NCBI GenBank assembly: GCA_031264145.1
Contig: JAISEK010000188.1
Span: 1 to 40,595 of the forward strand
Reading direction: 5' to 3'
Length of the DNA: 40,595 nucleotides
Source of the DNA: Deltaproteobacteria bacterium
Lineage (GTDB): Bacteria > Desulfobacterota > Desulfarculia > Adiutricales > Adiutricaceae
The notes under the pieces were generated by a model. The model saw only the letters and a list, made by a program, of their open reading frames with translations, was not told where the DNA came from and did not search any database. Position numbers and translations under genes: made by a program. The number at the start of each line of letters is the position of its first letter. Within the stretch, counting starts at the first letter, position 1. Shown one piece after another: positions 20,072 through 39,963 of the stretch.

Positions 20072-20821
20072 TCAGATCCCGGCCCCCTCGGGCACGAAGC
20101 CCTCGGGGAGATACTTGTACATGAGGACGTAGAAGAGGCTCGAGAGGCGGTTGAGGGCCGTGATTATGTCCTCGCGGCCGGTCCGGCCGTCCTGGTCCTG
20201 GAAGGCCCTGGCCGCCGCCAGCTCCGTTTCCCGGACCAGGGCCCTGAGCTCGTTCAGGGCCACCGAGAGGGGGCCCATCCGCCAGGAGGTCCTCATGTGG
20301 CGGTGCCCGAAGAAGGAGAGCGGGTTGTGGCTGCGCTCCCTGATGCCCTTGGCGTCGAGGCCGCAGAGGAACATCTCCGGGACCTTCTCGCCCCTGAGCT
20401 CGCACGGGAGGAGCCGGCGCGCGAACTCCAGCACCTCCTCGAGGTCGGAGACGAAATCGTCCCGGCCGGCCTGGGCCCCGGCCAGCTGGGCCGAGACTAT
20501 GCGGGCGCAGAGGGAGTCGAGGCGGCCCCGGAAGGCGATGATCGGGTGGTTCTTGGCCACCAGCCGGCGGCCGGAGAGATGGGTCAGGCCCTCGGGCTTG
20601 TGGTCCAGGACCGCCCCGTCCGGCCCCTCGAAGGAGCCCGGCGGCAGGGCCCTGAACGAGGCGTCCTTGACCCCGTGCCCCTCGAAGACCGGCGTTATGC
20701 CCCGCTCCCGGAGGAAGTCAAGGGCGGCCGGGGTGGGCACGGTCCCGGCGGGGATGGTCCAGGCCGGGACCGTGCGGTCCATGAGGATGCGCCTGAGCTC
20801 GCTCTCGGTCAAAACTGCCAT
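20072..20821 (-). CDS. eutT: EutT-like corrinoid adenosyltransferase
   Basis: 249 residues. It should transfer adenosyl from ATP to reduced cobalamin, giving the coenzyme of EutBC. Family signs are GLTHLSGRRLVAKNHP, FRGRLDSL and the C-terminal LNRLSSLFYVLMYKYL. The enteric EutT iron-binding motif HX11CCX2C, normally just before the THLS segment, is absent: the region reads VLDHKPEGLTHLSG with no paired cysteines. The enzyme may therefore work without the ferrous ion or bind metal differently. It lies between eutQ and eutA, with pduS downstream as the possible reductase. Confidence 0.9.
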   Translation of the reverse strand: MAVLTESELRRILMDRTVPAWTIPAGTVPTPAALDFLRERGITPVFEGHGVKDASFRALPPGSFEGPDGAVLDHKPEGLTHLSGRRLVAKNHPIIAFRGRLDSLCARIVSAQLAGAQAGRDDFVSDLEEVLEFARRLLPCELRGEKVPEMFLCGLDAKGIRERSHNPLSFFGHRHMRTSWRMGPLSVALNELRALVRETELAAARAFQDQDGRTGREDIITALNRLSSLFYVLMYKYLPEGFVPEGAGI

Positions 20822-20878
20822 GGGTGTCTCCCCGCCGGAGGGCCTGGGTGAAAAGGGGCAGGACGGTCCCGGCGGGGC

Positions 20879-21334
20879 CTACTGCTCGTACCAGTTGGCC
20901 GGGTAGACCACGTAGAAGAACCTGGTGAGGCCCGGGGCCGAGAACTCGATGGTCGAGTGGGCCGGGATGAAGATGACGTCACCGGCCTGCCCCACGACCT
21001 TGCGCCCGTCGATTAGGATCTCCAGGGTGCCCTCGATGACGTAGTCCACCTCGTCGTAGTTGAGCGTCCACTTGAAGACGGAGCGGTCCATCTCCATGAC
21101 CCCGAATCCCAGGCGGGGGCTCTCGGAGAGTTCCGAGATGTCCTTGAGGAAAACGCGGTCTCCGGCTTTCCCGGTGTCGAAGGGCTCCGGCCTGACCTGG
21201 GCCGTGCGCACCGACATGATGCCGCTGGGATCCACGGTCTTCCAGCCAGGTGTCGCCTTGGGGGCCTCGGCCAGGAGCTCGGCCAGGACCTTCCTGACCA
21301 TGGCCTCCAGGGCCTTCTTGTCAATGTCTCCCAT
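20879..21334 (-). CDS. eutQ: EutQ cupin-type acetate kinase-like protein
   Basis: 151 residues. The C-terminal cupin fold is seen in NYDEVDYVIEGTLEI and GDVIFIPAHSTIEF. EutQ of enterics has been linked to acetate kinase activity and to shell assembly. The N-terminus (DKKALEAMVRKVLAELL) is an amphipathic helix followed by a linker, resembling a microcompartment targeting peptide. The second of two adjacent ATGs is preferred, five bases after GGAGG; a longer frame to 21412 is unlikely. If it makes ATP from acetyl phosphate, a phosphotransacylase is still needed from outside the window. Confidence 0.93.
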   Translation of the reverse strand: MGDIDKKALEAMVRKVLAELLAEAPKATPGWKTVDPSGIMSVRTAQVRPEPFDTGKAGDRVFLKDISELSESPRLGFGVMEMDRSVFKWTLNYDEVDYVIEGTLEILIDGRKVVGQAGDVIFIPAHSTIEFSAPGLTRFFYVVYPANWYEQ

Positions 21335-21408
21335 CATGTCCTCCAGGAATATGGCTTTGGGGCCGGAAGGCCTTCGCGCTTTATTTGCGATAGAGTTGCC
21401 CGGGCGGC

Positions 21409-21684
21409 TCACTTGAGGAGCTTGCGGTCGACCTCGAGGGAGTCTATTATGCCCACGATGACGGCATCGACCGGGCTGTCGGCCTCCCCCAGGGCGTTTC
21501 TGGCCACGCTCCCCTTGGTCACCAGGACGTCCTCGCCTATGCCGGCGCCTATCGTGTCGACACAGACGATGGTCTCGCTGTTGCCGTTGGAGGCGGAGGT
21601 CTTGACGACCAGGAGCTTGCGGCCCTCCAGCTTGGGTTCCTTCTTGGTGGCCCAGACGTTGCCCAGGACTTTGCCTATTATCAT
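21409..21684 (-). CDS. eutN: EutN/CcmL-type pentameric vertex protein
   Basis: 91 residues. It begins MIIGKVLGNVWATKK and contains LLVVKTS, VCVDTIGAGIGEDVLV and KGSVARNA, the hallmarks of BMC-P proteins that cap the vertices of the polyhedral shell. Length is normal. It follows the pduM-like gene by 11 bases. Confidence 0.96.
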   Translation of the reverse strand: MIIGKVLGNVWATKKEPKLEGRKLLVVKTSASNGNSETIVCVDTIGAGIGEDVLVTKGSVARNALGEADSPVDAVIVGIIDSLEVDRKLLK

Positions 21685-22491: not shown

Positions 22492-23358
22492 CTAGCCGGC
22501 TAGCGGTCCAGGCCTGAAAGGCCGGCAGCCCATGGCGATCCCGGCCGGGGTCACCAGGTCGGGCCTGGGGGCCACCAGGACCCTGAGGCCGGTCTCCTGG
22601 GCGATGACCGGGCCGGCCCCGGGGGCGGCGGCCGAGCCGCCGGCCAGATGGAGGACGCCGACGTCCAGACCGGCCAGGCCGCTGGACAGGATGCGGCCCA
22701 TCTTGGCCAGGACCGGGGCGACCATGGCCGCCACGGCCTTGGCGTTGGCTGGGTCCGTCTTGAAGGCCTCGGCCTTCTCCAGGGGCATCCGCTCGTGGCC
22801 GGCGATGACCAGGCTCAGGTGGTGCCCGCCGGTCGGCTCGTCGAAGGAGGCGACCATCCGGCCGTCCCTGAAGGCCGCGGCCCCCGTCGTGCCTCCGCCC
22901 AGGTCGGCCAGGGCCCCGTCCCTGATGCCCAGCAGGAGGTTCGCGGCCACCGGCTCGTCGAAGACGCCGCAGACCTCCAGGCCGGCGGCCTCGCAGACGT
23001 AGCGGTGGGTGGCCTGGTCGCGCTCGGAGGTGCCGGGCGGCACGGCGATGGCCGCCCGGTCCAGGGACAGGTCCAGGGCGGTCTCGAGTCCCCGCCTGAG
23101 ACGCCCGCAGACGAGCCGGGCGCCGTTGAAGTCGACCACCAGCCCGTCCCTGACCACCGAGGCCGCCTCCCTGGCCAGGGCCAGGGGGGAGCCGTCGCCG
23201 GCCAGGACCACCAGGACGATCGAGGAGGTGCCCAGGTCCAGCCCGACCCTGATCTCCTGGCCGTCAGCGGGGGGCAGCGGCCTTTCCTGCCGGCCCTGGA
23301 GGGCGTCGAGGAAGGGCCCTAGGCCCGCTGGAGGCGGGGCGGGTCCCGGGTCGTCCAC
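22492..23358 (-). CDS. eutJ: EutJ chaperone-like ATPase
   Basis: 288 residues. It has the Hsp70/actin-type phosphate loops VGLDLGTSSIVLVV and ADLGGGTTG, plus a late LAGGSAAAPG adenosine-type motif. EutJ is regarded as a chaperone for ethanolamine compartment proteins; its client is not proven. The N-terminal 35 residues are proline-rich. Start is GTG at 23358, one base after the TAG of the upstream shell gene, so the two are translationally linked. Confidence 0.93.
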   Translation of the reverse strand: MDDPGPAPPPAGLGPFLDALQGRQERPLPPADGQEIRVGLDLGTSSIVLVVLAGDGSPLALAREAASVVRDGLVVDFNGARLVCGRLRRGLETALDLSLDRAAIAVPPGTSERDQATHRYVCEAAGLEVCGVFDEPVAANLLLGIRDGALADLGGGTTGAAAFRDGRMVASFDEPTGGHHLSLVIAGHERMPLEKAEAFKTDPANAKAVAAMVAPVLAKMGRILSSGLAGLDVGVLHLAGGSAAAPGAGPVIAQETGLRVLVAPRPDLVTPAGIAMGCRPFRPGPLAG

Positions 23359-23359
23359 C

Positions 23360-23647
<288 letters not shown>

Positions 23648-23722
23648 AACGGTATGCCTCCATCATTCGGCCGGGGCGCCGTGGCCCGCCGAGAAGCCTC
23701 GCCTCAGGAGAGGGCAGGGCCC

Positions 23723-24031
<309 letters not shown>

Positions 24032-24208: not shown

Positions 24209-25687
24209 CTAGCCCGAGGCCAGCCTCTCCATCACCAGGCGCACCAGCTCGTCGAAGGCCTGGTCAGGCGGGGCCTCCCGCGGCCGCGGCCCGGGCCCGG
24301 GGGGGGCGGCGGCCCTCAGGTCGTCGAGTTCCCTCAGGCCGTAGGCCACGCGCCTTATGTTGATGAGGTTCAGTGGGCCCACGTTGTCAGAGGTCGAGTT
24401 GTGGCCGATGGCGCCGCAGCCCAGGGTCAGCGAGGGGGCCAGGGCCGAGGCCGCCCCGATGGCGGCCAGGGCCGCCGGGGCGTTCACGATGAGGCGCGAG
24501 ACCGGCTTCTTCAGGCCGAACTCGCGGATTATGGCCTCGTCGCGGGAGTGGATGGCCATGGTGTGGCCGGCGCCCTCCAGGGACAGGATCTCGATGCACT
24601 TGTGGCAGGCCTTCTCCCAGTCGTCCTCCACGAAGAAGCCCAGGACGGGCATGAGCTTTTCCCGGGAGTAGGGGAACTTCTCGCCGACCCTGGTCTCCTG
24701 GCCCAGGAGGACCCTGGTCCCTGGGGGGACCGTCACCCCGGCCGTCTGGGCGATGTGCTCGGCCGTGCGGCCGACCAGCTTGGCGTTCATGGTCCCGCCG
24801 GGGCCCATGAGGACCCGCTCGACCCTCTCCGAGTCGCCGGGGGGCAGGAAGTAGCCGCCCTGGCGCCCGATCTCGTCCATGACCTCCCGGCGGATGGAGG
24901 TCTCGGTCACGATGGACTGCTCCGAGGCGCAGATGGTCCCGTTGTCGAAGGTCTTGGAGTCGAAGATTCTCCTGACGGCCAGGGGTATGTCGGCGCTCCT
25001 CTCAATGTAGGCCGGGCCGTTGCCCGGGCCGACGCCGATGGCCGGGGTCCCGGAGCTGTAGGCCGCGTGGACCATGGCGTTGCCGCCCGTGGCCAGGATC
25101 AGGTTCATGCGCTCGTGGCGCATGAGGGCGGCGGTGGCCTCCTTGGTCGGCATGGAGAGCGAGGAGACCAGGTCCACGGGGAGGCCCAGGGCCGAGAGGG
25201 CCCCCCGGATGACCGAGACGGTCTCCATGATGCAGCCCCTGGCCGATGGGTGCGGGGAGAAGATGACCGCGCAGCCGGCCTTCAGGGCGATGAGGGCCTT
25301 GAACATGGTCGTGGAGGTCGGGTTGGTCGAGGGGATCAGGGCGGTCACCAGGCCCACCGGGACGCCCACCTCGAAGGTCCTGCCGGCGGGGTCCTCCCTG
25401 ATGATGCCCACGGTCCTCAGATCCCTGACGCTGCGCCAGACCTCCCGCGAGGCGAAGAGGTTCTTCAGGAGCTTGTCCTCCCAGCGCCCGAAGCCGGTCT
25501 CCTCGTGGGCCAGCCTGGCCAGGCGCTCGGCCTGGGCCTCGCAGGCCGCGGCCACGGCCCCGGCGGCGCTGTCCACGCCGGACTGGTCCAGGGAGGCGAA
25601 GGCCCTCTGGGCCGCGTCGGCGGCCATGACCAGATTCCTGGCCTCCTGGATGGAGACCAGATCCCTATCCTTGACTTCGACTGTCAT
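24209..25687 (-). CDS. eutE: CoA-acylating acetaldehyde dehydrogenase EutE
   Basis: 492 residues. It oxidises acetaldehyde to acetyl-CoA using CoA and NAD+ inside the compartment. The catalytic Cys253 lies in FDNGTICASEQS and the cofactor-side motif ATGGNAMV is at 199-206. The extreme C-terminus, after a Pro-rich linker (about residues 457-472), is an amphipathic helix (AFDELVRLVMERL) that looks like an encapsulation peptide; enteric EutE carries such a peptide at the N-terminus, and here the N-terminus lacks it. It lies directly after eutL. NADH from this step must be re-oxidised; no EutG is encoded nearby, but PduS/PduT could do so. Confidence 0.95.
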   Translation of the reverse strand: MTVEVKDRDLVSIQEARNLVMAADAAQRAFASLDQSGVDSAAGAVAAACEAQAERLARLAHEETGFGRWEDKLLKNLFASREVWRSVRDLRTVGIIREDPAGRTFEVGVPVGLVTALIPSTNPTSTTMFKALIALKAGCAVIFSPHPSARGCIMETVSVIRGALSALGLPVDLVSSLSMPTKEATAALMRHERMNLILATGGNAMVHAAYSSGTPAIGVGPGNGPAYIERSADIPLAVRRIFDSKTFDNGTICASEQSIVTETSIRREVMDEIGRQGGYFLPPGDSERVERVLMGPGGTMNAKLVGRTAEHIAQTAGVTVPPGTRVLLGQETRVGEKFPYSREKLMPVLGFFVEDDWEKACHKCIEILSLEGAGHTMAIHSRDEAIIREFGLKKPVSRLIVNAPAALAAIGAASALAPSLTLGCGAIGHNSTSDNVGPLNLINIRRVAYGLRELDDLRAAAPPGPGPRPREAPPDQAFDELVRLVMERLASG

Positions 25688-25739: not shown

Positions 25740-26396
25740 TTAGTAGGCCGTGGGGTTGTCGGCCACGAACTGGACGGCCGACCCGAAGGCGTCGCAGGCG
25801 GCCTTGCAGGCCGACTGGCTGCCGGTCAGCAGGCCCCCGCCGAAGTTGGTCTCGGACGGCGGGCCGTAGAAGGCGGCCATCCTAACGTCGGCGGCCTTGA
25901 TGGCCATGTCGAGGGCGTAGACCGCCTCCAGCGGGGGGGCGATCAGGTAGGCCAGGGAGTCGCCCTCCTTGACCCCGGCAATCTTGGAGAGGTAGCTGCC
26001 GGTTCTGGAGATGCAGTGGGCGTAGTAGATGATCGAGTTTTCCTCGTTGGCCGAGACGAACCAGGCCTCGTCCTCGATGAAGGCCTTGAGGGCGTTGAGG
26101 CCCGATCTGACCTCGGCCGGGTTGGGGCCGGCCAGGACGCCCAGGATCTCGCCGGCCAGCTTGGTGTTCGCGTTGGCCGCGCCACCGTAGAAGCTCTTGG
26201 CGTAGACCACCTCGACGTCGGCCATCTTGGTGGCCTCGTCCAGGGCTGTGTAGGTCACGTCGTCGCAGTCGGTGGTCACCAGCCCCAGACTCTTGACGCC
26301 GGGCCTGAGGCCCAGATCCTTGGCCAGATCGGGGCTGACGTTGGGAATGATCTTGGCGGCCAGGATGTTGGTCTTTAAGGGATCGTTCTTTGCCAT
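25740..26396 (-). CDS. eutL: EutL tandem-BMC trimeric shell protein
   Basis: 218 residues with two circularly permuted BMC domains, as in EutL, whose trimers have a gated central pore that binds ethanolamine. Recognisable stretches are AAKIIPNVSPDLAKDLGL, SLGLVTTDCDDVTYTALDEAT and SFYGGAANANTKLAGE. AGGAGAGA nine bases upstream of ATG 26396 fixes the start; the frame stays open upstream only as shadow of eutC. It sits 59 bases after eutC, in the usual B-C-L order. Confidence 0.96.
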   Translation of the reverse strand: MAKNDPLKTNILAAKIIPNVSPDLAKDLGLRPGVKSLGLVTTDCDDVTYTALDEATKMADVEVVYAKSFYGGAANANTKLAGEILGVLAGPNPAEVRSGLNALKAFIEDEAWFVSANEENSIIYYAHCISRTGSYLSKIAGVKEGDSLAYLIAPPLEAVYALDMAIKAADVRMAAFYGPPSETNFGGGLLTGSQSACKAACDAFGSAVQFVADNPTAY

Positions 26397-26455
26397 TTTG
26401 ACGGTCTCTCCTGTGGCGTGTTTGTGGGGCTCTGCTCTTTCGGCTCGGATACGCC

Positions 26456-27334
26456 TCAGAGCTTGAGATCGAGGCCGCTGGCCTTCTTCTCGAGCATCAT
26501 CTTGACCAGGTCGGCGATGTAGCTGCCGGCCTCCACGGCCGGGGTGCCGCCCCTGTGGATGTTGGAGACCACGGTCCTCTTGGCCTCGGGTATGTCCAGG
26601 TAGGCCTTGTAGCAGAGGTAGGCCGACATGCTCTCGCTGGTCACGAGCCCAGGCCTCTCGCCGATGAGGCAGACCACGACCTCGGCCCCCGTTATCTCGC
26701 TCACGGAGTCCTCGGAGCCGACCCGGCCATACTGGACGAAGAAGGGCGGCGAGGTTGCTATGCCGGCGGTCTTGAGGCCGTCCGCCATGGCCCTCATGGT
26801 GTCCATGGCGTTGACGGTCACGGCCGTGGTCGAGAGGCCGTCGGCCACGAAGACGACCACCCTGTTCTGGGAGCCGACCAGGGCCTTTATCTTGGCCGCC
26901 TCGTCGGGATCGAAGCGCCGGCCCAGGTCGGGCCTGGTGAGGAACATGTCCTTGCTCTCGCAGCGGGTCCTGAACTTCGGCAGGCCGTGCCTGGCCATCC
27001 AATCGTCGGGCACCTCGGTGAAGACGGCGTCCATGGCCACGGCGTGGTCGGCCCTGAAGCGCAGGAGGGTATCCGTCAGGTAGCGGGTCCCGGCCCGCCA
27101 GACCCCGATCCTGGCCGGCGTTATCTTCTTAATGGCCCGGAGGGCCTCGACGTTGTGCGGGTTGGGGACGTCGATCCTCTCGGAGAGGTCCTCGTCGAGG
27201 ATGTCCGCGAGGACGTCGCCGCCCCCGGCCGCGGCTGGCGCGGCCTCGCGCCCGGCCTTGGGCAGGACCCCGGAGACGGCCATGTCCCTGAGCACCTCGG
27301 CCACGTACTTCTTTATCTCATTCTCGGAAACCAT
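26456..27334 (-). CDS. eutC: Ethanolamine ammonia-lyase small subunit EutC
   Basis: 292 residues. With EutB it forms the adenosylcobalamin-dependent lyase that turns ethanolamine into acetaldehyde and ammonia. Family stretches include ARIGVWRAGTRYLT, VFVADGLSTTAV, CLIGERPGL and VVSNIHRGGTPAVEAG. The first 20 residues (ENEIKKYVAEVLRDMA) form an amphipathic helix, the known targeting peptide position of EutC. A linker rich in Ala and Gly follows. The second of two adjacent ATGs is taken, six bases after AGGGGG; the upstream extension in frame is not credible. Confidence 0.96.
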   Translation of the reverse strand: MVSENEIKKYVAEVLRDMAVSGVLPKAGREAAPAAAGGGDVLADILDEDLSERIDVPNPHNVEALRAIKKITPARIGVWRAGTRYLTDTLLRFRADHAVAMDAVFTEVPDDWMARHGLPKFRTRCESKDMFLTRPDLGRRFDPDEAAKIKALVGSQNRVVVFVADGLSTTAVTVNAMDTMRAMADGLKTAGIATSPPFFVQYGRVGSEDSVSEITGAEVVVCLIGERPGLVTSESMSAYLCYKAYLDIPEAKRTVVSNIHRGGTPAVEAGSYIADLVKMMLEKKASGLDLKL

Positions 27335-27393
27335 CATAAACCCCCTAGCGGATTTCCAGTGCCAATCGGGCCTTCGGGAAGGCCATGCCCGGG

Positions 27394-28758
27394 TCAATAG
27401 AAGATGGAGGCGTCACCGGCCTTGGCGGTGAGGCGGCCCTTGTCGTCCATGAGCCCCAGGCCCTTCATCCACTCGAAGAACTCAGGGGCCGGGGTCCGGC
27501 CCAGGATCTCCCTCATGGTGGCGTCGTCGTGGTAGCTGGTGTCCTGGTAGGCCAGCATGACGTCGTCGCCCACGGGGACGCCCATGTAGTAGTTGGCCCC
27601 GGCCAGGGCCGTCAGGAGGGTGGCCATCTCCTGGTCGTCCTGGTTGATCTTGGTGTGGTTGGTGTAGCAGGGGGCCATGCCCATTGGGATGCCCAGGAGT
27701 TTGCCCATGAAGTGGTCCTCGAGGCTGGCCCTTATGATCTGGCGCCCGTCGTAGAGGGTCTCCGGGCCGATGAAGCCCGAGACGTTGTTGAGCATGAAGG
27801 GCTTGTAGCGGCGGGCCAGGCCGTAGCAGCGGGCCTCCAGGGTCATGAGGTCCACCCCGCCGTCGGCGTCGATGGACTGCTCCGAGCCCTGGCCGGTCTC
27901 GAAGTACAGCAGGTTGGGCCCCGGGGCCTGCCCCAGACGGTGGATGCAGTCGTAGGCCTCGTCCAGGATGGCCGCCGTGACCCCGAAGCCGTCGTTGGCC
28001 TGCTGGGTGCCGGCCAGGCTCTGGAAGAGGCAGCAGGCCCTGGCCCCCTTCTCCACGGCCTTCATCTGGGTGGTCACGTGGGCCAGCACGCAGTTCTGGG
28101 TGGGCACCCCCCACTTGTCCATGAAGTCGTGCAGGAGGTTCAAGATGGCCAGGGTGTTGTCGACCGTGTCCTCCACGGGGTTCACCCCCAGGACCGCGTC
28201 GCCCGAGCCGTAGGAGAGGCCCTCGCACAGCGAGGCCTTGATGCCCTCGAGGTCGTCGGAGGGGTGGTTGGGCTGGTTCCGGTACGAGAGCGTCCCCGGC
28301 AGGCCGATGGTGGTCGCGCAGGTGGAGGGGATGGAGATCTTGGAGGCCGCGGCCACCAGGTCCATGGCCGTCATTATCTTGGCCACCGCCGCCGCCGCCT
28401 CGGCCTCTATGCCCCTGGCGACCCTGAGGATGTCGTTTCCGCTGGTCTCGTGGGACAGAAGCCAGTTCCTGAGCTCGCCCACGGTCCAGCCCTTGACCCT
28501 GGAGTAGATGCCCAGGCTCAGGTCATCCTTGAGGACGCGGCTGACCTCGTCCTTCTCCGGGGGCAGCACGGGGTTCTCGAAGATGTCCCCCAGGGTGATG
28601 TTGGACAGGACGATCTTGGCCGCCGTGCGCTCCGTGACGGTGCTGGCCGCCCGGTCCAAAAGGACGTCGCCTGATTTCTCGTCGTTGGCTTTGGCCAGCA
28701 CGTCGGTCAGGCTTTTGAAGGCGTAGACCCGTCCGGCCAGCTTGGTCTTTAATATCAC
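27394..28758 (-). CDS. eutB: Ethanolamine ammonia-lyase large subunit EutB
   Basis: 454 residues, equal to E. coli EutB. This TIM-barrel subunit holds the active site and binds adenosylcobalamin with EutC. Conserved stretches seen are GLSYGSGDAVLGVNPV, NCVLAHVTTQM, LYFETGQGSEQS, GFIGPETLYDGRQIIRA and DDVMLAYQDTSYHDDAT. The start is GTG with GGAGGTAGT just upstream. It is preceded by a 288-base gap after eutP. The catalytic acid (Glu of ETGQGS) is present, so the enzyme should be active. Confidence 0.97.
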   Translation of the reverse strand: MILKTKLAGRVYAFKSLTDVLAKANDEKSGDVLLDRAASTVTERTAAKIVLSNITLGDIFENPVLPPEKDEVSRVLKDDLSLGIYSRVKGWTVGELRNWLLSHETSGNDILRVARGIEAEAAAAVAKIMTAMDLVAAASKISIPSTCATTIGLPGTLSYRNQPNHPSDDLEGIKASLCEGLSYGSGDAVLGVNPVEDTVDNTLAILNLLHDFMDKWGVPTQNCVLAHVTTQMKAVEKGARACCLFQSLAGTQQANDGFGVTAAILDEAYDCIHRLGQAPGPNLLYFETGQGSEQSIDADGGVDLMTLEARCYGLARRYKPFMLNNVSGFIGPETLYDGRQIIRASLEDHFMGKLLGIPMGMAPCYTNHTKINQDDQEMATLLTALAGANYYMGVPVGDDVMLAYQDTSYHDDATMREILGRTPAPEFFEWMKGLGLMDDKGRLTAKAGDASIFY

Positions 28759-29046: not shown

Positions 29047-29505
29047 TCAGCCTAGCGGCCCCCCGTCAAGGGCCCCGACCCAGGCCCTCAGCTCTGGGAT
29101 CCCCTGGCCGGTCACCGGGGAGACCCTGAAGACGCCGGGCACGCCGGAGTTCTCGAGGGCCTTCTCGGCCTTCTCCAGGGAGGCCTCGGAGGCCAGGTCA
29201 ATCTTGGTGACGACCCCGACCACGGCGGCCTTGAGGGCCAGGCCTATCTTGGCCGGCAGCCAGATGGGCTTCTGGCCGTCCATGACCATGAGTACGGCCG
29301 AGGCCCTGGCCGAGTTGAGGATCAGGGCGTTGTAGAACCTGGGGAGCGAGAGCATCTCGCCTGGGGTGTCGATGCTCCTGGCCTGGTTGTAGGTCAGGGC
29401 CTCGGTCTTCCTCACCTCGTCGGGGCCCAGGCCCAGGGCGGCCAGAAGCGTGCTCTTGCCCGAGGAGACCGGGCCTATGACCATCAGGGGCCTCGCCTGG
29501 GACAC
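29047..29505 (-). CDS. eutP: EutP/PduV-type small GTPase-like protein
   Basis: 152 residues. A P-loop GPVSSGKST (residues 11-19), the switch-like SIDTPGE and the base-recognition-like VTKIDLA are all visible, as in the Ras-like EutP/PduV family. Its role in compartments is uncertain; EutP has been reported to have acetate kinase activity and PduV to place compartments in the cell. Start is GTG at 29505, six bases after eutS. Confidence 0.93.
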   Translation of the reverse strand: MSQARPLMVIGPVSSGKSTLLAALGLGPDEVRKTEALTYNQARSIDTPGEMLSLPRFYNALILNSARASAVLMVMDGQKPIWLPAKIGLALKAAVVGVVTKIDLASEASLEKAEKALENSGVPGVFRVSPVTGQGIPELRAWVGALDGGPLG

Positions 29506-29511
29506 GGCCGG

Positions 29512-29850
29512 CTAGGTCCTGGTCACGGGGGCCGGATCGAAGCCCAGGATTTCTGCGAGGGCCCTGGTAGCCCCGCGAAGGGCGCTGTCCACGGAGGCCA
29601 CGTCGCCGGTGAAGACCAGGCAGCCCGTGAAGCGGTCCACGAACTCCAGCCTGACATCGCCCGTCTTCTCGGCGGCGTCGGCGGCTATGATGGCCCCCTC
29701 GCCCGGGGTGATGGTCATGAGCCCTATGGCCCCGCTGTCGTCGACGCCTATCTGGCGGCAGAGCTCGGGGCTGGGGTGGGCGATCATGTGGGCCAGCGTG
29801 GCCTGCTTGCCCGGAACGTACTCGTGGATTTGCCTTATCTTCTCGGCCAT
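29512..29850 (-). CDS. eutS: EutS/PduU-type permuted BMC shell protein
   Basis: 112 residues. A circularly permuted BMC domain with IRQIHEYVPGKQATLAH at the N-terminus, which forms the six-stranded barrel capping the pore in EutS/PduU hexamers, and AIGLMTITPGEGAIIAAD afterwards. It is the first gene of the eut cluster on the minus strand, so the promoter should lie in the 902-base region upstream. Stop is TAG, then eutP follows at once. Confidence 0.95.
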   Translation of the reverse strand: MAEKIRQIHEYVPGKQATLAHMIAHPSPELCRQIGVDDSGAIGLMTITPGEGAIIAADAAEKTGDVRLEFVDRFTGCLVFTGDVASVDSALRGATRALAEILGFDPAPVTRT

Positions 29851-30752: not shown

Positions 30753-32267
30753 ATGAAGCGAGCCGTGCAAACAGGGATGCTCATGCAGAAAGGCTGCGGG
30801 CTGACCCTTTTGACGCCGGACGAGGTAAAGGAAACGCATTACGCCGGGCTTGAGATCCTGGCCAAGACCGGGGTGTTCGTGGACTCGGACGAGGCCCTGG
30901 ACATCTTCCACTCCATCGGCTGCGTGGTCGACAGGCCCACGAAGAGGGTGCGCATCCCGGCCCACCTGGTCGAGGCGGCCCTGGAGAGCGCCCCCTCCCA
31001 GTTCATAGTCCGGGGAAGGGATCCCGGGAGGGCCCTCCGCATAGGCGGCAAGAGGGTCAGCTTCACCCCCTTCGGCGAGGGCGTCCGGGTCAACGACCCC
31101 TACACCGGGGAGCAGCGGGACTCCACCAAGAAGGACCTGGCGGCCATCACCCGCCTCTCGGACTGGATAGAGGAGTTCGACATCATCCACAGGGCCGTGG
31201 CCTCCCAGGACGTCCACCCGGAGTCCTACCCCCTGCACAACTTCGAGGCCATGATCCACAACACCACCAAGCCCATCTCCCTGGGCGGCGGCAACGGCTT
31301 CCTGGTCGACAAGATGATCCAGCTGGCGGCCATGGTCAGGGGGGACAAGGATTCCCTGAGCCTCGAGCCGCTGATGGTCATAAGCACCTGCCCAGTCAGC
31401 CCCCTCAGGCTGGTTAGCGAGTGCTGCGAGATAGCCATCCACGGCGCCCGCCACCGCATCCCGGTGCGCTTCACGACCATGGCCCTGTCCGGCAGCACCA
31501 GCCCCATAACCATGGTCGGGACCATGGCCGTCCAGAACGCCGAGTTCATGGCCTGCGCCACCCTGAGCCAGGCCGTCAGCAAGGGCGCCCCCATCTTCAG
31601 GAGCGGGACCTCGACCCAGCTGGACATGAGGAAGGGCGACGCCTCGGTCGGATCCCCCGAGATGGCCATGATGGCGGCCATGAACGCCCAGATAGCCCAG
31701 TTCCACGGGGTGCCCTCCTGGACGGGCGGGACGTAGACTGACAGCAAGATCCCGGGCGGCGCCCAGGCCGGCCACGAAAAGACGCTCACAGCCCTCTTGG
31801 CTGGCTTGGCAGGGTCCAACGTCATCTACGGGGCGGGAATGCTTGAGTGCGGGATGACGGTCGACTACGGGCAGCTGCTCCTGGACTCCGACATGCTCCA
31901 GATGGTCCTCTTCCTTCTTCGAGGAGAAGAAGTGACGGAGGAAAACCTGGATCTCGAGGAAATCCACGAGATAGGCCCCCACGGCAACTACATGATGAGC
32001 AAGCTCACCCGCAAGTTCATGCGGGCCCAGAGCCGGCCCAAGTTCTTCGACCGCATGAACATGGAGTCCTGGAAGAAGCAGGGCAGCCCGGACGCCTACC
32101 AGGTGGCTCTCCTGAAGGCCAAGGACCTTCTGGCCAACCACAAGGTCGAGCCGCTTTCGGCCTCGGTGGCCGACGACGTGAGGCGCTTCATCGTCGAGGC
32201 CGAGAAGGAGCTGGGCGTTCCCTCCAAGAACCCCGACTTCGACCCGACCAAGGGCAGCCTGTCCTAA
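30753..32267 (+). CDS. mttB: Trimethylamine methyltransferase MttB with in-frame amber (pyrrolysine) codon
   Basis: The frame from ATG 30753 (AAGGAG eight bases upstream) runs to TAG 31734-31736 and then continues without another stop to TAA 32265-32267. Read through, it is 504 residues with the amber at residue 328, close to pyrrolysine 334 of Methanosarcina MttB. Sequence on both sides is MttB-like: HGVPSWTGGT before and KIPGGAQAGHEKTL, then IGPHGNYM after. The enzyme moves a methyl group from a tertiary amine to a corrinoid protein (MttC), with pyrrolysine holding the amine. No mttC, ramA or pylTSBCD genes are in the window. Without suppression the product would be a 327-residue truncated protein. 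The true amine could be trimethylamine or N-methylated ethanolamine. A 7-bp hairpin (32294-32300 with 32312-32318) follows. Confidence 0.95.
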
Positions 32268-32521
32268 GGGACCATTCAATCCATCGCCCGACCCTGGCCG
32301 GCTTCCAGGAACGGCCAGCGGGGGGCTCCACATAGGCCGCCCCCAGGGGGGCCCGCGGAAGGCCACTGGCCATCCCGGGGGGCGGCTTGGCCAGAAAACC
32401 CCAACCCGCCACTGTCCGGACGGGTCCCGCTCGCCGAGATTTCGGCCCCGGCCAGCGGGCCCGGTGGCGGCGGCCGGCCAAGGACCTTGGCCGGCCAAGA
32501 GGGAAAGGGACCGAGGGGACC

Positions 32522-33163
32522 ATGCCGCTCAGGAACGCCATCTTCGACTTCGACATGACCCTGGTCGACTCAATTAAGCCCCTCCTGACCAGCGCGAACC
32601 TTTTGGCCATTGAGTTCGGGCTCCGGGAGGTGACCTACGACCAGGTCTACCTGGCCGAGGTCTCGGTCCCCAACTGCACCTTCGAGAAGCTCTGGACCCA
32701 GCTCTGGGGCCGCTACGATCCGGCCTGGTACGAGGCCTACGCCGATCACCTGACCGAGCCTGAGTACAGGGCCATGGAGCTCTTCGAGGGCGGCCGGGAG
32801 ACCCTTCTGGCCCTGAGGTCCAAGGGCGTGGCCCTGGGCCTGGCCTCCAACCGCGACACGCCCGACAAGCCCCTGCGGATGCTGGGCGTCCTTGACCTCT
32901 TCCAGGCCATCGTCGGCCAGCTGGACGTCGAGAACGTCAAGCCGGCCCCGGACATGATCCTCAAGGCCATGGACCTCATGGGGGCGGAGCCGGCCGAGAC
33001 CCTCTACGTCTGCGACTCCAAGGGGGATCTCCTGGCCGCCCGGGCCGCCGGGGTCAAGGCCTTCGCCATGAGCACAGGTGGCCACGCCAAGGAGGAGCTC
33101 CTGGCCCTGGGGGCCTGGCGCGCCGGCGACAGGCTTGCCGAGGTATTGCCTTTTTTCGGGTAG
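32522..33163 (+). CDS. HAD-superfamily phosphatase (phosphoglycolate phosphatase-like)
   Basis: 213 residues. HAD motif I is DFDMT with nucleophile Asp9 and Asp11; motif II Ser is in LASNRD, motif III Lys in NVKPAPD and motif IV in VCDSKGD. A helical cap sits between motifs I and II (about 15-90), as in small-substrate phosphatases. ATG 32522 has GAGGGG upstream; the in-frame extension to 32387 is GC-rich noise. It lies 254 bases after mttB and before a choline-kinase-like gene, so phosphocholine, phosphoethanolamine or a methylated form is a plausible substrate. This is inference; phosphoglycolate is the default reading. Confidence 0.85.
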   Translation: MPLRNAIFDFDMTLVDSIKPLLTSANLLAIEFGLREVTYDQVYLAEVSVPNCTFEKLWTQLWGRYDPAWYEAYADHLTEPEYRAMELFEGGRETLLALRSKGVALGLASNRDTPDKPLRMLGVLDLFQAIVGQLDVENVKPAPDMILKAMDLMGAEPAETLYVCDSKGDLLAARAAGVKAFAMSTGGHAKEELLALGAWRAGDRLAEVLPFFG

Positions 33164-33540
33164 CCGCACCAGGGCCAGTTTGGGCAACTTGGGCAACCAA
33201 ATGGCGGCCTCCCGCGGCCGGCCACTTTCCCAGGGGGCATTTCCCCAAAAGTGCTACCGGACTATTGGCCCACGGGCGACTCCGGTTTCGGCGAAAATTT
33301 TTCCCTTTCTGCTTTTCCTTGGGGGATAATTCCCCAGAAAAGGCCCAGACACACGGAATGGCCTTAGAAGACTAATGAAACCAGGCACCAAGGAGGAACC
33401 ATGAATTGGCTTCCCTTGGCAGGCAAGATAATTTTTTTCGTCCCCAGGCGGTACCTCCGCTCGCGGGACACCCATTAGCCCAGCCCGTCGCCCAGACGGC
33501 AATAACCCTTTTCGGCTTAGGATCCAAAGGAGCTAATCGC
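33164..33540. other. Intergenic region before the first choline-kinase-like gene
   Basis: No full gene. It carries an imperfect hairpin at about 33312-33342 (CTTTTC/GAAAAG outer and GGGG/CCCC inner pairs around GATAAT) and the short leader frame listed next. A clear promoter was not found. Confidence 0.4.
33401..33478 (+). CDS. Possible 25-residue leader peptide
   Basis: ATG 33401 is preceded by AAGGAGG with a four-base gap, one of the strongest ribosome sites in the window. The frame encodes 25 residues with a hydrophobic centre (KIIFFV) and a basic tail, ending in TAG 33476-33478, 62 bases before the choline-kinase-like gene. It could be a leader that couples translation, or chance. If amber is sometimes read as pyrrolysine, the stop would be leaky; the next in-frame stop follows within a few codons. 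Confidence 0.35.
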   Translation: MNWLPLAGKIIFFVPRRYLRSRDTH

Positions 33541-34782
33541 ATGGCCAAGAAGATGGATACCTCCAAGATGCTTCATTTCCCGGCACCCGCCGCCGCCTCG
33601 GCCAATCAGCGCTACATCGGCGCGGCCTCGCTCTACAAGCTGGCCAAGGCCAACTACGAGGAGAGCGACGGGGCCTTCGTGAGGGCCCAAATCAAGGAAG
33701 TAGTCGAGCAGAACTATGATCTCGGCGAGGTCACGGAGGTCTACGAGATTTTTGGCGGTTACGTCAACCGCAGCTTTGGGGTGACCTGCGTCAAGGACGG
33801 CAAGGAGGACGACTACTTCGTTAGGAAGTACAAGGCCAAGTTCAACACCGAGGCCAACCCCGACGACATCCTCTACGAGCACAACCTCATCAACTACTGT
33901 CTCAAGAGCGGCCTCAAGGAGGCGGCCAAGGTCTACGAGTCCAAGAACGGGACCACCATGGTGAGCCTGGTGGACAAGGACGAGACCGGCAAGGACCTCA
34001 AGCGCTACTTCGCCGTCTACGACTACCTCGAGGGCGAGGACAAGTGGACCTGGGTCAACAACGAGAACAACCCCACCGAGTTCAGGAACATCGGGGCCCT
34101 GCTGGCCCGCTTCCATCTCTACGGCCGGGACTTCAACCCAGGCAAGCTGGCCAAGGCCGAGCCCAAGATCCAGTTCCTCCTGCCCTCGTTCGTCGATCTG
34201 TTCTCCAGGCTGGCCGCAAGGGACCTCCCCGACTCCATCTTCCACGCCTTCTTCAACTCCAAGCTGCCCTCGATTATCGAGACCATCAAGAAGAACCAGA
34301 TACCGGACGAGGCCTTCGCCAAGATGCCCGAGACCCCGATCCACAGCGACCTCCATGCCGGAAACGTCAAGTGGGTGGGCGAGGAGTGCACCGGCATCTT
34401 CGACTTCGACTGGTCCAAGATCGAGGTCCGGCTCTTCGACATCGCCTTTGCCCTGATTTACTGCTGCTCCTCCTGGCGGCCGGAGACCGACGGCCAGCTT
34501 CGCCTGGACGACTGCCGGTACTTCCTGGAAGGCTACAACGGCCAGCTCAAGAAGCTCAAGGGTCTCGAGCCCCTCAACGAGACCGAGAAGAAGCATTTCC
34601 CAGTGATGATGGCCGCCGGCTGCCAGTACCTTATAAACTGGTGCACGACCCTGTACTTCTACGAGGACCCCGAGCTGGTCAACGACTACGAGGCCCTCTA
34701 CTATCTGCTCCATATAACCAGGCTCATGGATTGGATCGAGGCCCACAAGGCCGATCTAGCCAAAGTGGTCGAGGGCGTTTGA
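33541..34782 (+). CDS. Choline/ethanolamine kinase-like phosphotransferase (APH fold), LicA-like
   Basis: 413 residues. The APH/choline-kinase catalytic motif is HSDLHAGN with Asp270, and the metal-binding motif is FDFDW with Asp288. The N-lobe nucleotide region includes EIFGGYVNRSFGV and YFVRKYK. Members phosphorylate choline, ethanolamine, homoserine or aminoglycosides. The next gene is a DMT permease, the same pairing as licA-licB of choline uptake operons, and the surrounding genes handle methylated amines and ethanolamine, so choline or a methylated ethanolamine is the favoured substrate. It is longer than LicA (about 100 residues extra at the N-terminus). A paralogue lies at 38398-39603. 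ATG has AAGGAG upstream. Confidence 0.85.
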   Translation: MAKKMDTSKMLHFPAPAAASANQRYIGAASLYKLAKANYEESDGAFVRAQIKEVVEQNYDLGEVTEVYEIFGGYVNRSFGVTCVKDGKEDDYFVRKYKAKFNTEANPDDILYEHNLINYCLKSGLKEAAKVYESKNGTTMVSLVDKDETGKDLKRYFAVYDYLEGEDKWTWVNNENNPTEFRNIGALLARFHLYGRDFNPGKLAKAEPKIQFLLPSFVDLFSRLAARDLPDSIFHAFFNSKLPSIIETIKKNQIPDEAFAKMPETPIHSDLHAGNVKWVGEECTGIFDFDWSKIEVRLFDIAFALIYCCSSWRPETDGQLRLDDCRYFLEGYNGQLKKLKGLEPLNETEKKHFPVMMAAGCQYLINWCTTLYFYEDPELVNDYEALYYLLHITRLMDWIEAHKADLAKVVEGV

Positions 34783-34853: not shown

Positions 34854-35927
34854 ATGAGCGCGAAATCAGCTCAGGCTGTCTTGGAGGCCAAGCAGCTCAA
34901 GCACGCCAAGAAAGGGATCCTGGCCGGGATTCTCTCGGGCGTCCTGTGGGGGGCCTCAGGCACCGTTCTGTACCTGGCCCTCAACTTCGAGCCCTTCACC
35001 CTCCCGCAATTCAGCGGTGAGGGCTTGGAATTCGGGCCCGGCCTGGCCCTTCTGGTGGCCGCCGCCCTGTGCGGGGCCCTGATGCACGACACCTTCGCCG
35101 CCATATGGGTCGGCGTCCACAACATCCGGGCCGGCAAGTTCAAGGAGTATGGCCGGACCCTCCGGACCAAGCCGGGCAAGATGGTCTGCCTGGGGGCCAT
35201 CCTGGGCGGGCCCATCGGCATGAGCGGCTACCTTCTGGGCATCACCTTCGTCAACGCCGCCTACGCCCTCCCGATAACCGCCGCCTATCCGGCCCTGGCC
35301 GCCGTCCTGGCCACCTTCATCTTCCGCGAGCGCAACCCCGCCCGCGTGTGGATCGGCGTCGTCCTGTGCATCCTGGGCTCCTTCCTGGTCTATTACGCCC
35401 CCCTGGGCGAGGGCCAGGAGAAGGACGTCTATTTCGCCATCGGCATGGTCCTCTCGACCCTGGCCTGCCTGGGCTGGGCCTCCGAGGGTCTCCTGTCCAC
35501 CTACGGCATGGACATGCTGGATCCCGACATAGCCCTGGGCATCAGGGAGGGAGTCAGCGCCATCGCCTACTTCATCTTCGTCGTGCCAGTCGTGACCCTC
35601 TTCATGAGCAATAGCTTTGGCCCGACCCCCATCTGGGAGCTCTTCTCGGCGGCCTGGCACACCTCGGCCCTGCCTATATACGTCTTCGCCGGTTTCCTGG
35701 GCGGCTTCTCCTACATCTACTGGTACAGGGCCCTGAACATGACGGGCGTGGCCAGGGCCATGGCCCTGAACGTCACCTACGCCCTGTGGGGCGTCCTTTT
35801 CGGGGCCATCTTCACCGGCCTGACCCCGACGATCTACCTCGTCATGGGCGCCGGGGCCATCGCCTGCGGGGCCATCCTGGTCTCCGCCAATCCCAGGGAG
35901 CTCTTCAGGCTCCGCGAAACCAAGTAA
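34854..35927 (+). CDS. DMT-superfamily (EamA) permease, possible LicB-like choline/amine importer
   Basis: 357 residues with about ten transmembrane segments in two EamA halves (roughly 20-180 and 190-350). The family includes amino-acid, drug and choline (LicB) permeases. Placement right after a LicA-like kinase, with AAGGAGG before its ATG and 71 bases from the kinase stop, is the main argument for amine uptake. An unusually long loop (about residues 45-60 and 80-105) separates early helices. It may stand in for the EutH permease that is missing from the eut cluster. Confidence 0.85.
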   Translation: MSAKSAQAVLEAKQLKHAKKGILAGILSGVLWGASGTVLYLALNFEPFTLPQFSGEGLEFGPGLALLVAAALCGALMHDTFAAIWVGVHNIRAGKFKEYGRTLRTKPGKMVCLGAILGGPIGMSGYLLGITFVNAAYALPITAAYPALAAVLATFIFRERNPARVWIGVVLCILGSFLVYYAPLGEGQEKDVYFAIGMVLSTLACLGWASEGLLSTYGMDMLDPDIALGIREGVSAIAYFIFVVPVVTLFMSNSFGPTPIWELFSAAWHTSALPIYVFAGFLGGFSYIYWYRALNMTGVARAMALNVTYALWGVLFGAIFTGLTPTIYLVMGAGAIACGAILVSANPRELFRLRETK

Positions 35928-36614: not shown

Positions 36615-38051
36615 ATGAATTTTTTTAATTTTTTCACCGACGAGCAAAAGAAGAACATCCACGAGGCTTCGTTGACCATTCTTGAGGAGACGGGCATGGT
36701 GGTCAAGAATGCCGATGCCCTGGAGATCTTCACCAAGCATGGCTGCAAGGCCGATGGCAACCGGGTAAGGTTCCCCAGGAAGATCGTGGCCGAGAAGATG
36801 GCCTCCGTCCCGCCGACCTATACCTTCACCGCCCAGGTGCCCGAGCTTGACGTGACCCTCCCGGGCGACAGGCCCGTCATCGTCACAGGGTCGTCGGCCC
36901 CCAACGTGGTCGATCCCGTGACCGGCGAGGAGAGGCGCGGGACTAGCCGCGACGTGGCCAACATCGCCTACCTGATAAACGAGCTAAAGGGCTTCGACGT
37001 CTTTTCCATCTCCATCCTGGCAGACGACGCCCCCCCGGACATGAGATCCCTGTACCGCTTCTACCCGGCCCTGAAGAACTGCAAGAAGCCGGTCCGCTCC
37101 AACACCCCGACCATCCCTGACCTGGAGAAGGTGCTTGAGCTGGGCTACTCCATCGCCGGCGGGAAGGAGGCCTACTTCGAGAGGCCCTTCATCAACCACC
37201 ACTACTGCCCGGTCATCTCGCCGCTGACCTACGATGTCGAGTCCACGGCCTCGGTGGTCCACCTGGCCAAGTTGGGGCTCCCGGTCTACGGCACCATCGT
37301 CCCCAACGCCGGCATGACCTCGCCGATGAGCCTTTTGGGCACCCTTACCCTTGGGAACGCCGAATTTTTGTCGCTCAGCTTCCTGATGCAGGCCATCAAG
37401 CCCGGCTCCGGGGTCATCTATGCGGTCCTCTCGACCGTCGGCGACATGCGCAACGGCGACTACGCCCCTGGGGCCATCGAGACCGGCATCCTCCAGATGG
37501 GCCACAGCGAGATGGCCCGCTTCTACAACGTGCCCTCCGGCGGCTACATCGGCCTGACCAATTCCCAGAGCAACGACGTCCAGAACGGCTACGAGACCAG
37601 CCTCAACACCGCCGCCGCCCTTCTGGCCGGCTCGGATCTCTTCAACATGGGCGGGCTCCTTGGCGGCCTGATGGCCTTTGACTTTTCCAAGGCTGTCATC
37701 GACAACGAGATCGCCCTGAACCTGAAGCATCTCAAAAAGGGCATCCCCTACGACCAGAACGATTTCTGCCTGGAGCTGATCAACAAGACCGGCCCAGGCG
37801 GCAACTACATGGTCCTGCCCCACACGGCCAAGAACCTCAGGAAGGTCACCCACTACCCGACCATCGGGGTCAGGGGCTTCAGGAGCAAGTGGATAAACGA
37901 CGGCAAGCCCAACGCCGCTGCCCAGGCGGCCGCCTTGGCCAAGAAGATTTTGACCAAGCCCAACCCCAACGCCCTGGCCGCGGACATCGACAAGAAGGTC
38001 AGGGATCACATCCCCGGCCTGCCAGACGGCCAGGCCATCTGGTACGAGTAG
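36615..38051 (+). CDS. MttB-superfamily amine methyltransferase lacking pyrrolysine
   Basis: 478 residues. It aligns along its length with the mttB product (opening TDEQKKNIHEASLTILEETG, the VPSGGYIG segment, and the late GPGGNYMVLPHTA), but where MttB has the amber residue this protein has Leu in YIGLTNSQS. Non-pyrrolysine members act on quaternary amines such as glycine betaine, proline betaine or carnitine, passing methyl to a corrinoid protein. Choline is an attractive substrate here because of the kinase, permease and eut neighbours. The ATG has only a weak ribosome site. It ends with TAG. No corrinoid protein gene is adjacent. Confidence 0.92.
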   Translation: MNFFNFFTDEQKKNIHEASLTILEETGMVVKNADALEIFTKHGCKADGNRVRFPRKIVAEKMASVPPTYTFTAQVPELDVTLPGDRPVIVTGSSAPNVVDPVTGEERRGTSRDVANIAYLINELKGFDVFSISILADDAPPDMRSLYRFYPALKNCKKPVRSNTPTIPDLEKVLELGYSIAGGKEAYFERPFINHHYCPVISPLTYDVESTASVVHLAKLGLPVYGTIVPNAGMTSPMSLLGTLTLGNAEFLSLSFLMQAIKPGSGVIYAVLSTVGDMRNGDYAPGAIETGILQMGHSEMARFYNVPSGGYIGLTNSQSNDVQNGYETSLNTAAALLAGSDLFNMGGLLGGLMAFDFSKAVIDNEIALNLKHLKKGIPYDQNDFCLELINKTGPGGNYMVLPHTAKNLRKVTHYPTIGVRGFRSKWINDGKPNAAAQAAALAKKILTKPNPNALAADIDKKVRDHIPGLPDGQAIWYE

Positions 38052-38397
38052 CCCTTCCTCCCCCCGGCCGCGCATGAGGGCCGGGGGGAAGAGGCCTCCC
38101 GTCCTGAGACCCTCCGCGCCGCCCCGCTCTTTTTTTTCTTTTTTTGCCATCGCCCGCGCGTCTCCTCGGCCCCGCCGGGAGCCGCCCCCATGCCAACGAG
38201 AACCGTCCGTATCTACAAGTTTGGGCCGCCCAGGGAGGTGACGGCCATCAAGGGCTTTAGACAGAGGACAACCAGTTACCGCTTGAAAGCTCCGCCCCAT
38301 GACGGCCAGGGAGTTCGGCCGGAGGCCCCCAGGGGAACCTTCCGGGCGCGCCCGCCAGCCACCGGGGCCCCCGAGCTCGCCAACCAGGAGGTTGCCC
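38052..38397. other. Intergenic region between the methyltransferase and second kinase genes
   Basis: Holds a strong GC hairpin just past the methyltransferase stop (listed separately) and a T-rich tract (38132-38147). A frame at 38190 begins like a quinone oxidoreductase for about 20 residues and then loses protein character; it is not called. Confidence 0.45.
38059..38089 (+). terminator. GC-rich hairpin after the second methyltransferase gene
   Basis: An 11-bp perfect stem, 38059-38069 with 38079-38089, with a nine-base loop, begins eight bases after the TAG. No T-run follows directly; the T8 and T7 tracts lie over 40 bases further on. It may slow transcription or protect the mRNA end. 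Confidence 0.45.
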
Positions 38398-39603
38398 ATG
38401 GATTGCTCCAACATGAAACCCATAGTGGGGGTCTCCCCCAATCAGTTTGAGGAGTGGAGGGAATTATTGGTCAAGAGCCGCAGGGTCGCCGAGGAGGCCC
38501 ATGTGGCCATCGAGTCGCAGGTCCTCTATAACCAGATCCACGAGCTTTTTGGCCGCCACTACGATCTGGGCAGGGTCATCGAGATCCACGAGGTATTCGG
38601 CGGATACACCAACCGCAGCTTCGGGGTGATCGTCGAGAAGGACGGCCAGAGGAACGACTACTTCGTCCGGAAGTACAAGGTCGAGGCCACGGACGCGGAC
38701 GTCCTCATGGAACACGGGCTCATCAGCCATGCCCTGGACAAAGGCTTCGCCGAGGCGGCCGGCATATTCCCGGCCACCGACGGCAGCTCCTTCGTGAGGC
38801 TAGGCGAGCTCAAGGGTGGCCGGGAAGTCAGCCGAATCTTTACCGTCTACCGGTTCCTGCGGGGCCAGGACAAGTACACCTGGATAGAGAACAAGAGCAC
38901 TCCCCGGGAGTTCGTCAACCTGGGGGCGCTTCTGGCCCGCTTCCATGCGGCCACGCACGATTTCGTTCCCAAGGGCGGCCAGCGCAAGACCGAGCCCAAG
39001 GTCAAGGTCCTTATCCCCGACTTCGCCAGGATCTTCAAGGAGAGGACAGCCCAGCCCCTGGAGACCCTTTTTCACGCCAACTTGGCCTCCACCCTGCCGT
39101 CCATACTCAAATATATGGAGAGCTTCGCCATTGGACCCGAGGAGTACGAGGCCCTCCTGGAGCTCCCGGTCCACGGCGACTACCACGCCGGCAACGTCAA
39201 GTTTGACGGGGAGGAGGCCGTGGGCCTCTTCGACTTCGACTGGTCCAAGATAGACGCCCGCGTCTTCGACATCTGCCTGGGCCTGGTCTACTGCTGCGGC
39301 TCCTGGGACATGGAGACCGACGGCTTCCTGCGCCTTGATGACTGCCGAGGCTTTTTGTCCGGCTATAACCAGGCCCTGGCCCAGGGCAGCCTGCCCCCCC
39401 TGACTGCGGCCGAGAGGAAGGTCTTCGTCCGCATGCTGGCCGGGGCCCACTTCTACCTAATCTACTGGCTGACCGAGCTCTGGTACTATCTCGACGTCGA
39501 CAACATCAACAACTACGAGGCCATTTCCTACATGACGCACTTCCTGAGGGGCCTCAGCTGGCTGGAGGCCAATAGAGGCCAGCTGGAGACGCTGGTTTCC
39601 TGA
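38398..39603 (+). CDS. Second choline/ethanolamine kinase-like phosphotransferase
   Basis: 401 residues, a clear paralogue of the 33541-34782 product: both share YDLG, EVFGGYTNRSFGV/EIFGGYVNRSFGV, YFVRKYK, LGALLARFH and the C-terminal YYL segment. Catalytic Asp261 is in HGDYHAGN and Asp279 in FDFDW. GGAGG lies upstream of ATG 38398; the 33 residues before it in frame are Pro/Arg-rich noise. Two kinases may serve two related substrates, for example choline and a partly demethylated form. It ends the cluster with TGA. Confidence 0.85.
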   Translation: MDCSNMKPIVGVSPNQFEEWRELLVKSRRVAEEAHVAIESQVLYNQIHELFGRHYDLGRVIEIHEVFGGYTNRSFGVIVEKDGQRNDYFVRKYKVEATDADVLMEHGLISHALDKGFAEAAGIFPATDGSSFVRLGELKGGREVSRIFTVYRFLRGQDKYTWIENKSTPREFVNLGALLARFHAATHDFVPKGGQRKTEPKVKVLIPDFARIFKERTAQPLETLFHANLASTLPSILKYMESFAIGPEEYEALLELPVHGDYHAGNVKFDGEEAVGLFDFDWSKIDARVFDICLGLVYCCGSWDMETDGFLRLDDCRGFLSGYNQALAQGSLPPLTAAERKVFVRMLAGAHFYLIYWLTELWYYLDVDNINNYEAISYMTHFLRGLSWLEANRGQLETLVS

Positions 39604-39717: not shown

Positions 39718-39793
<76 letters not shown>

Positions 39794-39843
39794 TCACCTT
39801 TTTTTTGCGTTTCATTGTCTTTCATAGGTAGTCAAGATCCTCC

Positions 39844-39877: not shown

Positions 39878-39963
39878 ATGGCTCTCATGGCCGTTATGGC
39901 CGCTATACAAGCTTAAATTTTTAGGGTAACATCTGGGGTAACGGACTAGCGGAGGGCCCCAAA

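Follow-up and report, generated by a model that had tools for sequence, protein, structure and literature searches.

What does an in-frame amber codon do inside a methyltransferase gene that stands back to back with a eut microcompartment operon, and which amine would the enzyme demethylate? The locus lies on contig JAISEK010000188.1 of a termite-gut-type deltaproteobacterium, in a draft assembly (GCA_031264145.1, here G000) of 4.01 Mb in 198 contigs that is 96% complete; "the window" denotes the whole stretch of 40,595 nucleotides that was analysed (features in Table 1). Pyrrolysine in bacterial MttB is already known, and its predicted decoding in this mttB adds one more case to those enzymes; the unexpected part is the neighbourhood of the gene, which suggests that pyrrolysine may have a further role, in the breakdown of choline.

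Table 1 Features of the window around the amber-containing mttB gene
Feature	Position	Strand	Evidence
eutA reactivating factor	18616..20058	-	PF06277 547 bits
eutN, eutQ, eutT	20072..21684	-	PF03319, PF06249, EutT
eutJ	22492..23358	-	PRK15080 286 bits
Two BMC-domain shell proteins	23360..24031	-	PF00936
eutE-type acetaldehyde dehydrogenase (acetylating)	24209..25687	-	TIGR02518 657 bits
eutL shell protein (C-terminal half of open frame)	25740..27002	-	TIGR04502 361 bits
eutC, ethanolamine ammonia-lyase small subunit	26456..27397	-	PF05985 261 bits
eutB, ethanolamine ammonia-lyase large subunit	27394..28758	-	601 bits, cut-off 554
eutP/pduV-type protein	29047..29505	-	TIGR02528, PF10662
eutS shell protein	29512..29850	-	NCBIfam EutS 116 bits (cut-off 123); BMC domain
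mttB, predicted pyrrolysine type, 504 aa with TAG read through	30753..32267	+	TIGR02369 563.6 bits; MTTB PF06253 291 bits; Foldseek best match 7XCL, TM-score 0.78
In-frame amber codon, predicted pyrrolysine, residue 328	31734..31736	+	Aligned to Pyl334 of 7XCL; TAG in 12/12 orthologues
PYLIS_3 (RF02510) match directly downstream of amber	31734..31836	+	71.1 bits, above gathering threshold of 38
Most constrained synonymous-site stretch of gene, codons 352-359, TTGGCAGGGTCCAACGTCATCTAC	31806..31829	+	Observed/expected synonymous change 0.25; 0/2000 permutations as low
HAD-family phosphatase-like protein	32387..33163	+	PF13419 107 bits; conserved downstream neighbour
APH-fold kinase 1 (MthK/choline-kinase-like by fold and neighbourhood)	33406..34782	+	PF01636
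EamA/DMT transporter, LicB-like	34854..35927	+	Best solved relative choline transporter LicB 7B0K, E = 4e-20
Second MttB-family gene, non-Pyl, no internal stop	36615..38051	+	PF06253 272 bits; nearest solved relative glycine betaine methyltransferase
APH-fold kinase 2	38299..39603	+	PF01636 68 bits

The gene opens with an ATG at 30753, ends with a TAA at 32265-32267 and is interrupted by a single TAG, codon 328. The initial annotation had read this amber as the pyrrolysine of an MttB whose frame resumes for 177 codons up to the TAA; the frame and an alignment that sets the codon opposite X (pyrrolysine 334) of M. barkeri MttB (7XCL) uphold the residue, and the frame does resume, but for 176 sense codons, the count of 177 including the TAA. 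The read-through protein covers positions 2-469 of the 469 of TIGR02369 (NCBIfam equivalog, cut-off 525) and belongs to the MTTB (PF06253) superfamily by its full-length domain and its fold. Codon 328 is likewise TAG in all 11 named orthologues (78-89% DNA identity), which are labelled Deltaproteobacteria or Candidatus Adiutrix, are 87-96% identical and include one complete chromosome, that of strain Smac51, i.e., an in-frame UAG stands at the pyrrolysine position of a conserved frame, as in a pyrrolysine-containing protein. Median dN/dS between orthologues is 0.026 before the TAG and 0.048 after it, and downstream of it there are no in-frame stops vs 7 to 29 in the other two frames together; by these comparisons purifying selection acts downstream of the TAG, and chance alone would be very unlikely to keep the amber and the open frame in this way. 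The Gly110, Met249, Pyl334, Tyr364 and Gly372 of the solved enzyme, whose catalytic residue set is taken from PMC9842639, are kept, and Gly108 and Tyr359 of the window protein correspond to Gly110 and Tyr364, which that study gives as conserved in pyrrolysine MttBs.

The machinery that the initial annotation expected elsewhere in the genome (pylT, pylS and pylBCD) is indeed present. Contig C57 carries, in this order, tRNA-Pyl (anticodon CUA), pylSn, pylSc, pylB, pylC and a trmL-like gene, with PylSn, PylSc, PylB (373 bits) and PylC (272 bits) all passing curated cut-offs, and pylD adjoins an nfu-like gene on a separate contig, C151 (L022/L024:1003-1875), its product scoring 140 bits, just below the cut-off of 150, and matching solved PylD structures at E = 4e-25. 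The detached pylD looks real and not an assembly break, because pylS and pylD lie ~2.4 Mb apart on the single chromosome of Smac51 (~2.1 Mb the other way round if it is circular) and three relatives likewise have pylD paired with nfu. Although the pyl genes and the window are on different contigs of the draft, the complete chromosome of Smac51 has both mttB and pylS. A tRNA-Pyl is present in the pyl loci of 9 of the 10 relatives, and genera g4 and g10 show another arrangement, pylSc being flanked by TAG-mttB and, in two loci, by pylD. Across the order, PylS exceeds its cut-off in 17 of 41 genomes; when the PylS and TAG-mttB surveys were joined by matching genome handles through identical coordinates, 33 genomes had been tested for both, with 16 having both, 15 neither and one mismatch of each kind (Fisher P = 2.5e-7, uncorrected for the genomes' relatedness). 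For G005 (= G042; 92% complete), the eut-linked gene is the only TAG-mttB found. Given the pyl machinery, the shared codon in 12 orthologous genes and the selection that follows it, the UAG at 31734 is almost certainly decoded as pyrrolysine in the cell, and the gene is, with high probability, a pyrrolysine methyltransferase of the MttB family.

On the opposite strand, divergent from mttB, the eut operon starts 0.9 kb upstream and runs eutS, eutP, eutB, eutC, eutL, eutE, shell proteins, eutJ, eutN, eutQ, eutT and eutA, then an RnfC-like protein; plus-strand frames in this region were rejected as neighbour genes, being antisense to eut genes. Both eutS and eutB adjoin the TAG-mttB in 9 of 9 relatives whose contig reaches far enough, and the linkage spans several genera, whereas the presence of other TAG-mttBs varies; for comparison, eut genes are absent from the surroundings of six further MttB loci, five of which have the TAG. 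We found no description of a eut-linked, separate pyrrolysine MttB clade in the open-access literature searched. The downstream genes recur in relatives as far as contigs allow, and among them the non-Pyl MttB-family gene is flanked by the APH-fold kinases and the LicB-like transporter, a layout that resembles an mth module at the level of protein families; the curated models nearest to both kinases are homoserine kinases, below cut-off, and not choline kinases. No corrinoid protein gene adjoins the window mttB, and neither MthC nor any other corrinoid match occurs on the window contig, leaving the cluster without the MthC and MthA pair of an mth module. Farther downstream (39718-40533), a tRNA-Asn is followed by an integrase-like frame with an arm-binding domain, so that the end of the contig probably marks an integration site.

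Of the 23 MTTB-family matches in the genome, three have a TAG inside the gene at the aligned position. Those on C53 and C85 belong to canonical operons of a transporter (a BCCT-like frame, recognized by eye), an mtbB with its own TAG, mttC and mttB; the mttC that the initial annotation would have sought is thus represented elsewhere, as MttC-type corrinoid proteins, two of which adjoin these other TAG-mttB genes. Counting the two mtbB genes with an in-frame TAG (L025:7041-8426 and L026:15352-16737, both on the minus strand), at least five proteins of this genome are predicted to contain pyrrolysine. The window protein and its relatives form a clade with 100/100 support on a stem of 0.89 changes per column, while M. 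barkeri MttB groups with other bacterial pyrrolysine MttBs, the deeper branching being weakly supported; beyond the order, the closest relatives that 297 genomes sampled from the phylum yield are only 43-44% identical. At 41 core positions (C-terminal tail left out), the clade is fixed differently from nearly all other pyrrolysine MttBs, and 32 of these fall in residues 209-370, a region that, as a caution, is also the most conserved in the other enzymes. These differences include one residue inserted 7 residues after the pyrrolysine. The AlphaFold2 model gives the pyrrolysine loop a pLDDT < 50, and we therefore draw no pocket argument from it. Variants without pyrrolysine occur naturally near pyrrolysine enzymes: Lys (AAG) and Met replace the amber in L114 (G004:C99) and L118 (G327:C83), respectively. 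A plasmid search for additional bacterial pyrrolysine mttB genes gave no match. Smac51 also encodes an MtmB homologue without an internal stop (L064, 1158858-1160204); a recent study reports that a non-Pyl MtmB of Methanococcoides demethylates choline and tetramethylammonium (PMC13044021).

Two features that the initial annotation had missed, the lack of an adjacent mttC and the distinct clade tied to a eut microcompartment operon, mean that this gene cannot safely be labelled a TMA methyltransferase. CutC releases TMA from choline, and we found no CutC match in G000 (96% complete) and none over cut-off in ten relatives, so that a supply of TMA by CutC was set aside for this genome. A precedent comes from E. 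limosum, where a single cluster that choline induces encodes the MttB-family protein MthB, a choline kinase (MthK) and a transporter of the EamA/LicB-like type. Demethylation of phosphocholine there yields dimethylaminoethanol phosphate, and pairs of MthB and MthK have been reported in delta-proteobacteria and insect guts (PMC12155760). Pyrrolysine chemistry in MttB serves the tertiary amine TMA (PMC9842639). Thus, based on the constant eut linkage (9/9), the separate clade, its 41 fixed positions, the missing CutC, the LicB-like transporter and the mth precedent, we tentatively propose, at somewhat under an even chance, that the substrate class is a choline-derived tertiary N-methylated ethanolamine, i.e., dimethylaminoethanol or its phosphate. 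The product of mth is itself a tertiary amine, the class handled by pyrrolysine chemistry, which is why a route from choline to ethanolamine is proposed.

From a parts list that can be read in the DNA (codon, machinery, conserved catalytic residues, clade and gene neighbourhood), we infer decoding in the cell, the substrate and the following route. The UAG would be translated as pyrrolysine with the tRNA-Pyl and the split PylSn/PylSc that the cell itself encodes, and the product would be an MttB-family amine methyltransferase of 504 residues that depends on a corrinoid. In this enzyme, as has been proposed for MttB of M. barkeri, the pyrroline ring would bind a tertiary amine as a quaternary adduct and hand one methyl group on to a corrinoid protein, the gene for which lies elsewhere in the genome. 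The downstream kinase, LicB-like transporter and non-Pyl MttB genes would convert choline via phosphocholine to dimethylaminoethanol (phosphate), the pyrrolysine enzyme would demethylate this further, and the end product ethanolamine would enter the adjacent Eut microcompartment. We hold a little more loosely the wider proposal that the enzyme, acting on dimethylaminoethanol (phosphate) and not on a simple methylamine, completes an anaerobic path by which choline is turned into ethanolamine for that compartment without passing through TMA, and that the motif TTGGCA(GG) may act in cis on the decoding of UAG in bacterial mttB genes.

A sizeable possibility, although one that we would not back at even chances, is that the enzyme is an ordinary pyrrolysine TMA methyltransferase, placed beside eut by chance or co-regulated within a general amine regulon. 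It passes the TMA equivalog model TIGR02369 (564 against a cut-off of 525; the two TAG paralogues reach 684 and 663) and keeps the catalytic residues of the TMA enzyme, and the TMA/DMA-type operons of the genome mean that MttC partners exist; yet these same operons already supply two TAG-mttB genes accompanied by mttC and mtbB, while the window clade is separate, with many core changes fixed, and retains its eut linkage in 9/9 relatives of several genera even though other TAG-mttBs vary in their presence. It is less probable, and in our opinion unlikely, that the substrate is another, acidic tertiary amine, e.g., N,N-dimethylglycine left by the betaine-type MttB encoded at 36615-38051: Arg283 of the clade (Tyr in all 20 other pyrrolysine MttBs) could bind an acid group and the solved structure closest to the non-Pyl neighbour is that of glycine betaine methyltransferase, but this enzyme is simply one of few solved relatives, and the eut linkage, the kinases and the LicB-like transporter would be left unexplained. 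Dimethylaminoethanol or its phosphate is the substrate that we prefer.

Although this genome also uses TAG as a normal stop codon, ending 6 of 20 mttB-family genes including the pyrrolysine-type mttB on C53, it is most improbable that the amber of the window is a real stop in a truncated or split gene, a pseudogene or an assembly error, because the same codon is kept in 12 separate assemblies (one a complete chromosome), dN/dS stays low after it, no later in-frame stop follows and the pyl machinery is present, which together exclude these readings as far as sequence allows. The C53 gene (4853-6253, L008) has a terminal TAG ~31 codons ahead of the next stop, and L099, L102, L105, L109, L110 and L112 end in the same way; since such TAG-mttB genes end in TAG, UAG would mean both pyrrolysine and stop inside one gene. 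In-frame TAA and TGA in two other paralogues were dismissed as recoding, the codons lying at or beyond the gene ends. As UAG is still an ordinary stop in the same genome, even ending a pyrrolysine gene, the role of PYLIS-like signals can be tested here. The PYLIS_3 model also matches a non-Pyl paralogue (41.5 bits) and the Lys variant, making it weak evidence of decoding, and the paralogue's score indicates that the match after the window amber is partly coding conservation. An RNA hairpin at the constrained site was likewise rejected as mostly a by-product of the LAGAN peptide, with little covariation by RNAalifold (1 of 42 pairs). At the aligned Leu-Ala, 7 of 11 pyrrolysine mttB lineages have TTGGCA, as against 2 of the 69 Leu-Ala pairs located elsewhere in these genes. 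The motif was picked after the data had been seen, some distant pyrrolysine mttBs do without it, and a previous survey did not detect a structure common to mttB (PMC3639795). TTGGCA(GG) recurs 63-72 nt after the UAG, and we regard it as a lead to a possible cis element. The conserved TTGGCAGG shortly after the UAG is seen at 31806-31813 of the window and at the aligned site in L008, L101, L102, L109-L112, L116, L117 and L119; GCA is mostly hardly used for Ala in the pyrrolysine mttB genes that have it. A second, weaker stretch of low synonymous variation lies upstream of the amber, at 31239-31274 (codons 163-174).

To our knowledge, the pyrrolysine methyltransferases characterized so far act on mono-, di- and trimethylamine. 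If our proposal is true, a conserved clade tied to eut and choline genes would broaden the chemical range of the 22nd amino acid, and insect-gut bacteria would have an anaerobic choline route that produces no TMA.

Compared with the C53 and C85 MttBs, the window protein has its TAG at the same site and is of the same family, but it shares only 40-41% identity with them, falls in another clade and is encoded without the mttC that adjoins theirs. M. barkeri MttB (7XCL/7XCN), a TMA:corrinoid methyltransferase, has the fold of the predicted window model (TM-score 0.78), 38% identity in the structural alignment, pyrrolysine at the aligned site and the shared Gly110, Met249, Tyr364 and Gly372; it differs in Thr111, which is Glu in the window protein as in bacterial paralogues, and in the loop, which in the window reads GGT-Pyl-TDSKIPGGA with one inserted residue, and the window enzyme is bacterial, with a eut neighbourhood in place of an adjacent mttC. 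The mth cluster of E. limosum (MthB, MthC, MthA, MthK and an EamA transporter) is resembled, in fold and neighbourhood, by the window's MttB-family gene with a phosphotransferase-fold kinase and a LicB/MttP-like transporter; the window lacks an adjacent mthC, has two kinases and adds a pyrrolysine MttB and a full eut operon. Finally, the eutS, P, B, C, L, E, J, N, Q, T and A genes of the known eut microcompartment operon are all present in the window, whose operon differs in having a divergent pyrrolysine mttB alongside.
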